Positions 6,091-60,303 of a DNA stretch of 64,000 nt are shown here, piece after piece. Position 1 is the stretch's first letter; each line of letters starts with the position of its first letter. Position numbers and translations under genes: made by a program. Source of the stretch: Candidatus Nitrososphaera gargensis Ga9.2 (GTDB lineage Archaea > Thermoproteota > Nitrososphaeria > Nitrososphaerales > Nitrososphaeraceae); the NCBI RefSeq assembly GCF_000303155.1, contig NC_018719.1:1922001-1986000 (forward strand), in the 5' to 3' direction. The notes under the pieces were generated by a model, which did no database searches, was not told where the DNA came from, and saw only the letters and a program-made list of their open reading frames with translations.

Positions 6091-7182
6091 GTGTCACCCA
6101 GGGAGTTTTTATTTCAATATTTGGACAGCGAGTCCTTCAAGATAATTCACGGCGACGCTTACGAGACTGTAAGACGATTGCCCGGCAACAAGTTTCGCGC
6201 AATCATTACTTCGCCGCCGTATTATCGCCACAGGCACTATGGCAACAACGATCACGAAATAGGCAGGGAGCATACAGCCGAAGAGTATCTTGACTCGCTT
6301 ACCAAGGTATTTTCAGCGTGTCGAGACATACTTGCAGACGACGGCAGCTTGTGGATAGTCATAGGCGACACCAGGCGACGCCATGAAAAACTGAGGATTC
6401 CTCACAGGCTTGCAGAAAGGCTTGTGCATGCAGGCTATGTCTTCCGGGAAGACATTATCTGGTACAAGAAAAACAACGTGAGCAGCAGCTCGCAGGACAA
6501 CTTTTCCCAAGCATACGAATATGTCTTGTTCTTTTCAAAGAATCGCCGCTCGTATGCAAACCTTGACGCGGTAAGAGTGCAGGGCAACGAGGCGGTCGAA
6601 GGGCGCAACAAGGTACCACCACCGGACATGGTACAGTACGCGCCAGAGAACCCCAACAAGAGCGAGATCACGCGCATTGCAAACATCATACATGGTGCGT
6701 CACCTTCGACTCCACTTTCAGAGCTTCCAACGACTTCAGAGATAGCTCGAGCCTATGGCTACGATCCGGAAAAGTTCTGCCCGACATGCTACCGCAAGTT
6801 CAAGCGTCACGCTACGCGCCGGAGGATAGGAGATCACAAGCATTACCCGATATTTGCAGTCTGCAATCCACACGGCAAGAACCCGTCAAACGTGTGGGAG
6901 ATTGCAACAAAGGCGCACTATGGCAACGAGCACTTTGCGATATTTCCTGAGGAGCTAGTTGACATGATAGTCAGGTTTGCGACTGAAAAGGGCGATTATG
7001 TTCTGGACCCATTCGCCGGGAGGGGGACCACTGGCATTGTCGCGACATCTCTTGGCCGCAAGTTCGTTGGCATAGACCTTTATAAGGAAAATGTGGAAAA
7101 GGCCAGCAGGAACATCACCAAGGCAGATTGTAGCAATGGCGCAAATCTAATAATGGGACTCGCGCCCAATAGTCCGCGTTGA
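6091..7182 (+). CDS. orphan site-specific DNA methyltransferase (beta-type amino-MTase)
   Basis: 363 residues from GTG. The catalytic motif IV (IITSPPYYRHRHYG, about residue 40) precedes the SAM-binding motif I (YVLDPFAGRGTTGIVA, about 310), the order of beta-class N4-cytosine/N6-adenine methylases; SPPY favours N4-cytosine. Between them lies a cysteine/histidine cluster (FCPTCYRKF near 230, then H and C residues to about 258) that may bind zinc. No restriction endonuclease is adjacent. The stop overlaps the bluB start by 4 bases (ATGA-like coupling). Confidence 0.88.
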   Translation: MSPREFLFQYLDSESFKIIHGDAYETVRRLPGNKFRAIITSPPYYRHRHYGNNDHEIGREHTAEEYLDSLTKVFSACRDILADDGSLWIVIGDTRRRHEKLRIPHRLAERLVHAGYVFREDIIWYKKNNVSSSSQDNFSQAYEYVLFFSKNRRSYANLDAVRVQGNEAVEGRNKVPPPDMVQYAPENPNKSEITRIANIIHGASPSTPLSELPTTSEIARAYGYDPEKFCPTCYRKFKRHATRRRIGDHKHYPIFAVCNPHGKNPSNVWEIATKAHYGNEHFAIFPEELVDMIVRFATEKGDYVLDPFAGRGTTGIVATSLGRKFVGIDLYKENVEKASRNITKADCSNGANLIMGLAPNSPR

Positions 7183-7931
7183 CAGCTGCTGACAGTAGTA
7201 ATGGTAGCAGCCTGACTGGCAGCGAGAAAGAAGGGCTGTACAAGGCTATATTCTCAAGAAGGGACGTCCGCTCTCACTTTGTGGACAGGGAAATACCAGA
7301 CGATGTCCTGCTCAGGATATTGAATGCGGCCCACCATGCTCCTTCAGTCGGATTTTCACAGCCGTGGAACTTTATCCTAATAAAGGACAGGGCGATCCGC
7401 CAGAAGGTCAAAGAGTCGTTTTTGCGCGAGCGCTCGCGCTCGATTTCAATGCTTGATGGCAACAAGCAGCGGCAAAAACAATATGTTTCGCTAAAGCTTG
7501 AAGGGATATTGGAATCTGCAATTAACATCTGCGTCACCTATGACCCGACGCGCTTTGGACCCTTTGTCCTTGGTCGGACATCCATAGAGGAAACAGGCGT
7601 CTACAGCGTCGCCTGTGCGATTCAGAATCTCTGGCTCGCGGCAAGAGCCGAAGGGGTAGGGGTCGGCTGGGTGAGCATCCTTGCAAATGAAGATCTTGAA
7701 AAAATACTGGCGATACCGCCGCATGTTAAGCCTATCGCATACCTGTGCCTTGGATACGTGAGCGAGTTTGCAGAAAAGCCGGACTTGGAGCGTGCCGGCT
7801 GGCTTCCAAGGATGGACCTTGCCAGTGTGGTTTGCTATGAGCAGTGGGGCGTGCATGATTCCAAATCATGGTCATCTCTCTGTGCTATCATGGGAAAAAT
7901 GAGCGAGGGCAATCGTGAAGACAATATATAA
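7179..7931 (+). CDS. bluB: 5,6-dimethylbenzimidazole synthase-like flavoenzyme (BluB)
   Basis: 250 residues of the nitroreductase fold with BluB hallmarks: FSRRDVRSHFVDREIPDDVL near the N-terminus, AAHHAPSVGFSQPWNFI (about 50-66), and GVGVGWVSIL in the second half. BluB cleaves reduced FMN to make the lower ligand of cobalamin. The organism needs cobalamin for methylmalonyl-CoA mutase, encoded at 24-28 kb, so the context fits. Translationally coupled to the DNA methyltransferase. A general nitroreductase is the alternative. Confidence 0.85.
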   Translation: MTAADSSNGSSLTGSEKEGLYKAIFSRRDVRSHFVDREIPDDVLLRILNAAHHAPSVGFSQPWNFILIKDRAIRQKVKESFLRERSRSISMLDGNKQRQKQYVSLKLEGILESAINICVTYDPTRFGPFVLGRTSIEETGVYSVACAIQNLWLAARAEGVGVGWVSILANEDLEKILAIPPHVKPIAYLCLGYVSEFAEKPDLERAGWLPRMDLASVVCYEQWGVHDSKSWSSLCAIMGKMSEGNREDNI

Positions 7932-7969: not shown

Positions 7970-10333
7970 TTGAAATTTGGACCTAGCATAGGCGGGCGAG
8001 AAAACTGCGACTGCTGCGCGTGCGGCAGCGGCCTGTTTTTTAGCATACATTATCACAATCTCGCCAGGTACCTATTTGTCACGCTTGCATTTGCCGGCCT
8101 CCTTTCCACAGGATGGTTTGGGATACCACTTGTCCCGCAATATCTCGTCAGTAACGAAGTAAACATCATAGCCGGCATTTTCACGCTTTTTAGCGCCCTT
8201 GGCACGATCTGGGGCGTGATGGCATATCGCGAGTTTACAAAGTCCATACAACTTGTCATGGACGCAAGGGATGCGGCGCGAAGACTGGACCACATGATAG
8301 GCGAGTACGAATACAAGTCCTACAACCCAATCACCAAGGACTATGAAGCCGGTTTTGTGCCTGCCGGCCCGATAGATTTCTGGGACAAGGAAATGCAAGT
8401 GCCGGCTTGGATGGACAAAGGCAAGTACTGGCATATACTGCTCAGCCTTCAGGGCGGGAGCCGCGAGGTCCGGCTGACAGTTGTCAAGGACAGAGACCTG
8501 CCGTTTAACACTGGCACCCGGAACGTCGCAATCACAGCCCGGCAGAGGGTTGACGGCGGAGAAGCAAAGACATCGCGCTACGTCTATGTCGTCAAGATCC
8601 CGCAATGGCTTGTGATGAATACTGACCGTAACAGGTTTGCCGACGGCGCTGCAGGCGATCAACTGGCCGAGCTTGTCGCCGACCTCAACAGGAAGATAGT
8701 AGCAGCTTCTGACGAAGTGGCAGAATGGGAGAGGCAGAGGATAAAGTACCCGTGGAGCGGCATGACGCTCGGCATCTACCTCAACAAGAGCCTGCCTTTG
8801 AGGATCGTTTACCGGCAGGTTATAAGGAACTTTCCAGGCGCAAAGAGGCGCGGCATCGAAGAGACAAACGCCAACCTTGCAAACGTCAAGGACGACGAGC
8901 TCGTCGCTTCGTTGCTCGAACTTGCATCTGAAAAAGGGATTCCCCAGAGCAGGATCGAAATGCTGCGGCTGCTTGTCAGGTTTTTAAAAAATGCATATAC
9001 CAAGCTTGGGCTTGGCGAGGGTGCAAGCGAATACCACAACTTCCATCACTCGCTTGAAGTGTCATATATGACCCTCCACATGATTCCAAAAGAATTTCAA
9101 GAGATCCAGTTTGGACCCAAGGATTACGAGATTGCGCTGGTGGCAGGGCTCCTGCACGACTATGATCCAAGCCAGCCGCTTGCATCACATGAAGGGCCCA
9201 AAGGTCCAAGCGTCGTTAGGACAATGCAGGAAATTTCAAAGACGCGAATACTGGACGCCTACTTTACCATGGGGTGGGAAGAATTTGCAAGCTATTTCCG
9301 TCAGTTCAAGTCGCCGCTTTCGCCTCCTGAGGAGTTTGCCACTACGCATCCCGAGTTCGTCAAGATGAACTGGAGCCCCCTAGAAAGCATTATGGTAGAA
9401 ATGCTGATCTGGAGAACAGACTTTCCGTTCTTCAGACAAAAGCTCGCGCAGGAAATGTTCGCGCGCCTTCAGGAGCAGCTGGCCAGCAGAGGCGAGGACA
9501 CCGACAGGATAAAGTTGCTTGCCGAAATCCTGTGGCTTGCCGACCTTGCCGTGACGTACATGGGTTCAGACCCCGTGAGGGCATGGGACAGGGTCACCAA
9601 CCTGTACGACGAGCTGAACCTGCCTAAGCTCGAGGCCGTGCCAAGGACTGATGCCTTTTTCTCAGACTTTGCTGAAAATGAGACCTTCAAGCAGATAATC
9701 GGCATGAAACACTTTCCCTATATTTTCCGGCAGAGGTGGAGCCTGATCTACCAATTCTTCCACGAGGGCAACCCGTCAACGCAGCTTAACAGGACCATAG
9801 CCACCGCCAGAAAGATGTACCTGAAAGTGAACTTGGAGATAGGTATGAGGAGGGGCGAAATGCTGCAGAACATGGCTACCAATAACTGGGCCGAGTATTT
9901 CATAGGAATTGGCAAGGATCAAAGCGAAGTTTTCAAGGCAAAGTCCCGCTTTACAGAGCTTGAGCCGCAGAACGCCTCTGCCTTCTGGGGAGACACTGAA
10001 AAGCTGCTTCCTGCAATTGCCGACAGGTCGATAGACAACTTTTTGATGGTGCTGCCGGAACATTCTGCGCCCTTTACCACGATGGAAAGCAAGAGCTCAT
10101 TCCGGTCCATGCTTGCAGTGATATCAAAAAAGCTGACAAGTGGCGGCGCGTTCCGAATCTTAACCGATATGGAAAAAGACAGTGCAGGTTTCAGGGAGCT
10201 TGTGTTGCTCGCAAATCAGGCCGGCTTTCAGCTGGCTACACACAATGACAAGGCATATTTTCCAGAGGGCTGGCGGGACCCAGAATTCCGGCATGACAGA
10301 AAAGTACAGGTCGTGGTGCTTGCTCCAAAATAG
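7970..10333 (+). CDS. membrane HD-domain phosphodiesterase fused to a methyltransferase-like domain
   Basis: 787 residues from TTG 7970. Two N-terminal membrane helices (about 27-47 and 62-80) anchor it. A middle segment (100-330) is unrecognised. Around residue 350 the string YHNFHHSLEVSYMTLHM and later ALVAGLLHDYDP (about 390) give the metal-binding H...HD pattern of class I cyclic-nucleotide phosphodiesterases. The last 170 residues (GDTEKLLPAIADRSIDNFLM, then YFPEGWRDPEF) resemble the later half of TrmB-type methyltransferases, but the glycine-rich SAM motif is not visible. Probably membrane-bound nucleotide signalling; substrate unknown. Confidence 0.72.
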   Translation: MKFGPSIGGRENCDCCACGSGLFFSIHYHNLARYLFVTLAFAGLLSTGWFGIPLVPQYLVSNEVNIIAGIFTLFSALGTIWGVMAYREFTKSIQLVMDARDAARRLDHMIGEYEYKSYNPITKDYEAGFVPAGPIDFWDKEMQVPAWMDKGKYWHILLSLQGGSREVRLTVVKDRDLPFNTGTRNVAITARQRVDGGEAKTSRYVYVVKIPQWLVMNTDRNRFADGAAGDQLAELVADLNRKIVAASDEVAEWERQRIKYPWSGMTLGIYLNKSLPLRIVYRQVIRNFPGAKRRGIEETNANLANVKDDELVASLLELASEKGIPQSRIEMLRLLVRFLKNAYTKLGLGEGASEYHNFHHSLEVSYMTLHMIPKEFQEIQFGPKDYEIALVAGLLHDYDPSQPLASHEGPKGPSVVRTMQEISKTRILDAYFTMGWEEFASYFRQFKSPLSPPEEFATTHPEFVKMNWSPLESIMVEMLIWRTDFPFFRQKLAQEMFARLQEQLASRGEDTDRIKLLAEILWLADLAVTYMGSDPVRAWDRVTNLYDELNLPKLEAVPRTDAFFSDFAENETFKQIIGMKHFPYIFRQRWSLIYQFFHEGNPSTQLNRTIATARKMYLKVNLEIGMRRGEMLQNMATNNWAEYFIGIGKDQSEVFKAKSRFTELEPQNASAFWGDTEKLLPAIADRSIDNFLMVLPEHSAPFTTMESKSSFRSMLAVISKKLTSGGAFRILTDMEKDSAGFRELVLLANQAGFQLATHNDKAYFPEGWRDPEFRHDRKVQVVVLAPK

Positions 10334-59134: not shown

Positions 59135-59737
59135 ATGTCACAACAGCAGACAGTCACAGAGGCTCAGGTTTACGACGCCCTGAAAAAATGCATGGATCCG
59201 GAAATACCGGTCAATGTAGTCGACCTTGGGCTCATTTATGGTGTCAAGGTCGCTAGCGGCAAGGATGTGGACATCAAGATGACCATGACCACTAGAGGCT
59301 GTCCTCTTCACGATACTCTGGTAAGCGACGTCAAGCGCTATGTCAGCAAGATAAACGGTATCGGCAACATTAATGTCGAGATCGTGTGGGACCCGCCATG
59401 GACGCTTGAAAAGATGAACCCTGATGTTCGCGAAAAGCTCGGATTTGGCAAGCCCAGGCTCCGCTTTCAGATCGATTATGAAAAGAGCAAGCCTCTCAAG
59501 ATGGGCAAGTTTGCAAAGCAGGAGGACGGCTCGCTGATCCTTGCAAATGACAAGGATCAAGGGTTCATGGTAAACGAGGCAATAGTAGAGTTCTGGAACA
59601 CTTGCGACGGCACCAAGACAATAAACCAGCTAACCGACCAGTTTTCGGCAAAGCTTGGTATGCCCAGGCAGCAGGTCGAGCAGGAAGTAGTCCAGCTGGT
59701 GCAGCAGTTGCTTGAAGCCGAGCTGCTTAAAGCCTGA
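59135..59737 (+). CDS. MIP18 (DUF59/SufT-like) domain fused to PqqD-like domain
   Basis: 200 residues. Residues 8-105: YDALKKCMDPEIPVNVVDLG then MTMTTRGCPLHDTLVSDVK and VEIVWDPPWTLEKMNPDVRE are the MIP18 family pattern (DPE...D-x-G, TTRGCP, W-x-P-P-W), linked to Fe-S assembly. Residues 115-200: LILANDKDQGFMVNEAIVEF then TINQLTDQF resemble the PqqD peptide-chaperone wing. Overlaps the next gene by one base. The fusion is unusual. Confidence 0.82.
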   Translation: MSQQQTVTEAQVYDALKKCMDPEIPVNVVDLGLIYGVKVASGKDVDIKMTMTTRGCPLHDTLVSDVKRYVSKINGIGNINVEIVWDPPWTLEKMNPDVREKLGFGKPRLRFQIDYEKSKPLKMGKFAKQEDGSLILANDKDQGFMVNEAIVEFWNTCDGTKTINQLTDQFSAKLGMPRQQVEQEVVQLVQQLLEAELLKA

Positions 59738-60303
59738 TGCTTGATAAGCTCGCCTCCTCCTATCCCAGAGTAATAGTGGAACTTGGGATGGGGGACGGCA
59801 GGCTGCTTGAAGCCCTTGCCAAGCATGACAGTAGTTCGCTATATGTTGGCATCGATCTTGATAATGCACAGTGTAAGCAGGCGCAATCTAGTATCGCACT
59901 TTCTAACGTGATCATTTTATCTGGCTCTTTTGAAGACATTGTCCCAACGTTCCCGGATGGGTCTGTCGACCGCTTTATCGCAGTGCTGCCAGACCCGGAA
60001 TTTATTGACGAAAAAAAGGAGGGCAGGTGGAAGCCATTCTACAAAGAAGTTTATTCAAAGCTGAAACCGAGCGGGACACTCGAGCTTGTCACAGAAATTA
60101 CCGATGAGCTCTTGCGGCCTGTGAGCGACGAGGCGTATGTAAAATGGGTCGCTTGGCTCAGGGCAAGCTTTCTCTCTATAGGGTTTGATCTGACAAAACA
60201 GCATGAAGGCGCACCAGCACAATATTCGTCACGCTGTCTTGACCAGTTCAGGGGAGACCCGGAGCGGATCCGCATGGTGACGCTTGAACTGGCAAAGCGA
60301 TGA
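59737..60303 (+). CDS. TrmB-like class I methyltransferase
   Basis: 188 residues. Motif I VIVELGMGDGRLLEALAKH, acidic strand 2 YVGIDLDNAQCKQAQ, then SFEDIVPTFPDGSVDRFIAV, LPDPEFIDEKKEGRWKPFY like the DPW-type motif IV of tRNA m7G46 methyltransferases. The tail differs from bacterial TrmB. Co-translated with the MIP18-PqqD gene (ATG overlaps TGA). Confidence 0.82.
   Translation: MLDKLASSYPRVIVELGMGDGRLLEALAKHDSSSLYVGIDLDNAQCKQAQSSIALSNVIILSGSFEDIVPTFPDGSVDRFIAVLPDPEFIDEKKEGRWKPFYKEVYSKLKPSGTLELVTEITDELLRPVSDEAYVKWVAWLRASFLSIGFDLTKQHEGAPAQYSSRCLDQFRGDPERIRMVTLELAKR

Follow-up and report, generated by a model that had tools for sequence, protein, structure and literature searches.

A predicted membrane HD-domain protein of Nitrososphaeraceae with a TrmB-derived pseudo-methyltransferase tail: a candidate cyclic-mononucleotide phosphohydrolase

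The PgpH/7TM-HD c-di-AMP phosphodiesterases are membrane-anchored HD hydrolases, an arrangement that they share with the protein described here. In archaea, signaling through cyclic nucleotides is poorly understood. The cAMP genes of Thaumarchaeota have been discussed at the level of COGs (PMC9289680), and the literature that we searched gave no description of the HD/TrmB-like protein.

We analyzed a window of 64,000 nucleotides from Candidatus Nitrososphaera gargensis Ga9.2 (contig NC_018719.1, positions 1,922,001 to 1,986,000); searches of the host genome covered its one contig of 2,833,868 bases. The open reading frame at 7970-10333 is intact. Its TTG start codon lies 38 bases beyond the stop codon of the upstream gene, and the alignment places the same TTG at the start of the closest within-genus relatives. 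For comparison we used 34 homologues with 39-87% identity; the named relatives belong to Nitrososphaera and to Nitrososphaeraceae MAGs. The features are as follows.

7970..10333, forward strand: whole gene (787 aa, beginning at a TTG), predicted membrane HD hydrolase with a TrmB-like pseudo-methyltransferase tail
8051..8239, forward strand: two hydrophobic helices, aa about 28-90 (Kyte-Doolittle)
8291..8623, forward strand: conserved domain of unrecognized type, aa about 108-218, with invariant K150, G151, W154, D174, P211, Q212, and W213
8624..8884, forward strand: linker, probably helical, aa 219-305, with an invariant KSLP (273-276)
8885..9625, forward strand: HD domain, aa 306-552, with H356, H360, H396, D397, D399, T483-D484, and D525 invariant in 34/34
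9626..9802, forward strand: post-HD segment with FFHEGNPSTQ, aa 553-611, strongly conserved
9803..10177, forward strand: TrmB-like domain with an eroded SAM site, aa 612-736, R627 replacing the middle Gly and G648 the beta-2 acid
10178..10330, forward strand: C-terminal tail, aa 737-787, poorly conserved
7179-7931: bluB (5,6-dimethylbenzimidazole synthase, NCBIfam equivalog), directly upstream of the HD/TrmB-like gene
59737-60303: TrmB-like methyltransferase encoded on its own, SAM motif intact, a probable paralogue of the tail, scoring under the TrmB equivalog cut-off

The sequence-only reading had noticed two membrane helices, and Kyte-Doolittle peaks around residues 37 and 66, present in most homologues, bear this out. 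The stretch preceding the helices is variable. Positively charged residues past the second helix suggest a hairpin that leaves the C-terminal part of the protein in the cytosol. No significant Pfam or PDB match was found for the N-terminal region, including in a profile search of the N-terminal domain. A poor model (pLDDT 35), taken with our reading of the sequence, faintly hints that the domain at 108-218 is rich in strands.

The HD core consists of YHNFHH at 355-360 and HDYD at 396-399, as had been pointed out in the initial reading. All 34 homologues show the pattern [YF]H[NS]xxH..HDxD, and H356, H359, H360, H396, D397, D399, P400, D484, and D525 are invariant among them; the predicted H...HD...D ligand set of the HD superfamily is conserved. 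The profile search proposed at the outset, against PDEase_I, HD, and methyltransferase families, returned matches to all three. PDEase_I (PF00233) aligned with residues 355-399 at 19.3 bits (E = 0.001; gathering cut-off 24.8 bits), ranking ahead of HD (PF01966) at 14.6 bits (E = 0.04; gathering cut-off 22 bits), with both scores under their cut-offs. At E ≤ 0.5, PDEase_I matched 33 of the 34 homologues (best 4.5e-5), Methyltransf_4 matched 32, and HD matched 31 (best 4.4e-5). Because so many homologues share them, these weak matches are more than chance.

Searches of solved structures pointed the same way. The whole-family profile retrieved PDE9A at E = 0.002; a profile of the HD domain alone retrieved PDE9A at E = 0.001, followed by PDE1B and PDE5; SAMHD1 came lower, at about 0.02-0.03. 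In the alignment with PDE9A, H356, H360, H396, and D397 coincide with the YHNxxH...HD residues of the PDE, that is, with the position of the general-acid His and the His/His/Asp positions of the metal ligands. The aligned segment extends from YHN as far as HDxD and lies mainly in the HD core's first half, which is common to several HD families; it stops before D525 and leaves unaligned the C-terminal half of the PDE domain, the part concerned with the purine-selecting Gln and the hydrophobic clamp. The PROSITE signature PS00126, which we take to be HD[LIVMFY]xHx[AG]xx[NQ]x[LIVMFY], was found in 0 of the 34 homologues; Pro-400 sits where the pattern requires a His. The suggested likeness to class I PDEs, which degrade cAMP and cGMP in animals, is therefore upheld by the nearest solved relatives, whereas formal membership is not, the Pfam score and the PROSITE signature both falling short. 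In the alignable half of its active site, the HD domain looks capable of class I PDE-like action, although its membership in PDEase_I is unproven.

Structure predictions built from seven sequences were unusable for the full-length protein (pLDDT 35) and for the HD region (pLDDT 44), the model of the latter giving no Foldseek matches; the low pLDDT probably reflects too few sequences in depth. The predicted metal site therefore rests on sequence.

A relationship of the C-terminal domain to TrmB, also noted from sequence at the outset, is firmly indicated by profile comparison. Methyltransf_4/TrmB (PF02390) matched residues 620-736 at 29.4 bits, over the Pfam cut-off of 24, and the family profile retrieved the TrmB structure 1yzh at E = 5.5e-6. 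The TrmB equivalog model TIGR00091 gave 25.5 bits, far under its cut-off of 112.65. We compared the SAM site in an alignment of 34 fused and 19 standalone sequences. Each of the 19 standalone paralogues has the beta-2 acid and the first two Gly residues of GxGxG, whereas the second (middle) Gly is found in none of the 34 fused tails, 22 of which carry an Arg there, and the beta-2 acid is found in only one. The fused tails have also lost the LPDP motif that the standalone proteins contain. The apparent lack of a SAM-binding loop in the single sequence is thus a property of the whole family.

The fused domain has invariant positions of its own (N621, N668, G674, and G726). Across seven close pairs, its dN/dS of 0.08-0.28 is similar to that of the HD domain (0.05-0.19), and the tail is under purifying selection. 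The tail is a maintained pseudo-methyltransferase and may bind a ligand. It represents a clean case in which an enzyme domain has lost its cofactor site and has been selectively retained.

The full-length protein occurred in all Nitrososphaeraceae genomes at least 90% complete in our first search for relatives, which covered the order, and in 0 of the 16 other families, where the matches were short and limited to the HD region. A class-wide search with the HD domain found it in all 39 Nitrososphaeraceae genomes among the matches listed. A homologous HD domain is also part of HD-GNAT proteins, about 440-580 aa long, which were seen in families f1, f2, f3, and f9 (loci L042-L052, for example L046:3379-4950, all Nitrososphaerales with the same HD core). 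A search of the N. gargensis genome found no HD-GNAT gene, and we found no relatives in viral contigs. In a phylum-wide sample there was no strong match to the HD family outside these four families; the borderline matches were one from f22, at E = 6.9e-4, and two from f24, with E values around 7e-4. The HD family is in essence confined to four families of Nitrososphaerales, which are probably ammonia oxidizers; f1, f2, and f9 appear to correspond to Nitrososphaeraceae, Nitrosocaldaceae, and Nitrosopumilaceae, respectively, which are ammonia oxidizers.

Finally, we assessed the nucleotide-signaling context. The search for cyclases that had been recommended identified four class III cyclase-like genes above the Pfam cut-off in the N. 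gargensis genome (L056-L059). Three of them are short and contain KYVGD and D-I-[LV]-G, which we assume to be motif sites of class III cyclases, as is the catalytic-Arg position, where the same three carry a Lys. These three Lys-bearing proteins may, judging by this residue, be inactive. Some relatives have up to 13 cyclase-like genes. Of the 17 families compared within the order, 6 have cyclase-like genes, and 4 of these contain the HD family; none of the other 11 does (Fisher p = 0.006, on related and hence non-independent families); this co-occurrence may reflect a single clade.

DAC domains were found in 0 of 31 genomes of the lineage, compared with 11 of 14 control genomes, and no GGDEF domain was found in 21 genomes. 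A search of 21 genomes for RelA/SpoT synthetases was negative in the Nitrososphaera genomes covered and in all others but one, from f9, whose domain (G044:C1:1008658-1009020, E = 6.9e-21) is possibly a transfer. Because their synthases are absent (no DAC or GGDEF in relatives, no RelA/SpoT synthetase in Nitrososphaera), the usual other messengers c-di-AMP, c-di-GMP, and (p)ppGpp were considered as substrates and set aside as unlikely. With cyclase-like genes present and synthases of c-di-AMP and c-di-GMP missing, the best candidate for the substrate, still unproven, is a cyclic mononucleotide. The N. gargensis genome contains no cNMP_binding domain, so a receptor, if there is one, would be of another kind.

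The HD/TrmB-like protein, carried by ammonia oxidizers of soil, is probably part of an unstudied signaling system. Our main reading, to which we assign a probability of roughly 0.45, is that it is a membrane-bound, metal-dependent HD phosphohydrolase that cleaves a 3',5'-cyclic mononucleotide supplied by the cyclase-like proteins, with the TrmB-derived tail as a regulatory or binding domain. The class III cyclase-like proteins would make the cyclic mononucleotide, and the HD domain would open its ring. H360, H396, D397, and D525 would hold one or more metal ions and H356 would act as general acid; the attack on the phosphorus would come from a hydroxide bound to metal, as in class I PDEs. The N-terminal hairpin would anchor the enzyme at the membrane, where the following domain may sense or dock, and the tail, devoid of SAM enzymology, would have taken on its regulatory or binding role.

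A broader and more tentative proposal is that ammonia-oxidizing archaea (AOA) have a cyclic-mononucleotide signaling system of their own, in which short class III cyclase-like proteins bearing the Arg-to-Lys change make the signal and a family of class I PDE-like HD proteins specific to the lineage, with either a ligand-binding TrmB-derived tail or an acetyltransferase-like one, ends it. If this is true, one branch of the HD family would be membrane-bound and would have turned a methyltransferase into a ligand-binding domain, and the other would carry an acetyltransferase-like domain. A PDE-like protein that belongs to the core of the sampled near-complete Nitrososphaeraceae, whose genomes contain several cyclase-like genes and lack synthases of cyclic dinucleotides, would offer a direct handle on the question whether ecologically important archaea use cAMP or cGMP.

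We also considered the gene neighborhood. In several genera bluB and the HD/TrmB-like gene stand next to each other; in genus g2 the latter is instead flanked by purB-like and SMC-like genes (assigned by eye from the sequence), and bluB was not found there in the 8 kb examined. Neighbors therefore do not define function, and we rejected them as a guide to it. A tRNA-Arg gene lies downstream in most genus members examined. Upstream of bluB, an N6/N4 DNA methylase gene at 6091-7182 is conserved within the genus.

The HD domain could hydrolyze another substrate, such as a dNTP, a nucleoside monophosphate, a linear di- or oligonucleotide, or some other phosphorylated metabolite. Families built on this HD core hydrolyze a variety of phosphoesters, SAMHD1 appeared in the profile search, one HD-GNAT relative matches the 5'-deoxynucleotidase YfbR, and we saw no conserved link between the HD/TrmB-like gene and a cyclase gene. 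Nevertheless, PDEs rank above families of the SAMHD1 and YfbR type, and H356, at the position of the PDE general acid, is invariant in the fused and HD-GNAT families alike, so we regard this explanation as rather unlikely. A substrate from the cobalamin lower-ligand branch, with the protein acting as a membrane phosphatase of alpha-ribazole or cobalamin 5'-phosphate, is suggested by the upstream BluB and its adjacency in several genera; the different surroundings in genus g2 speak against it, as do the PDE-like residues and the pseudo-methyltransferase, which would not be expected of such an enzyme, and we judge it very improbable.

Loss of catalysis altogether, leaving an inactive HD scaffold or receptor, would agree with a tail that is already a dead enzyme and with the Glu that replaces D525 in 9 of 11 HD-GNAT relatives. 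The invariance of all HD ligand positions in the fused family at 39-87% identity makes this improbable for the HD/TrmB-like protein. A c-di-AMP phosphodiesterase analogous to PgpH, to which the combination of an HD domain with a membrane anchor might point, would find no DAC domain in the 31 genomes of the lineage searched to supply it and would have an anchor of two helices rather than seven; we give this idea almost no credence.

We compared the HD/TrmB-like protein with the closest known systems. It resembles class I PDEs (PF00233; PDE9A, PDE1B, and PDE5), the best-scoring solved structures for its HD domain, in the YHNxxH...HDxD core and in the candidates for general acid and metal ligands, but it has P400 in place of a PDE His, a predicted membrane hairpin, and a TrmB-like tail. 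Its C-terminal 125 residues align with the tRNA m7G46 methyltransferase TrmB (PF02390, TIGR00091), yet in contrast with standalone TrmB-like paralogues they lack GxGxG, the beta-2 acid, and LPDP. From the PgpH/7TM-HD proteins it differs in the number of helices and in the lack of a DAC cyclase in the genomes of its lineage that were searched. The thaumarchaeal HD-GNAT proteins share a homologous HD domain with YHN..H...HD[YF]DP and RTxxP and likewise end in a transferase-type domain; they differ in that this tail is GNAT-like, that the membrane hairpin and the N-terminal domain are missing, and that the residue corresponding to D525 is mostly Glu.
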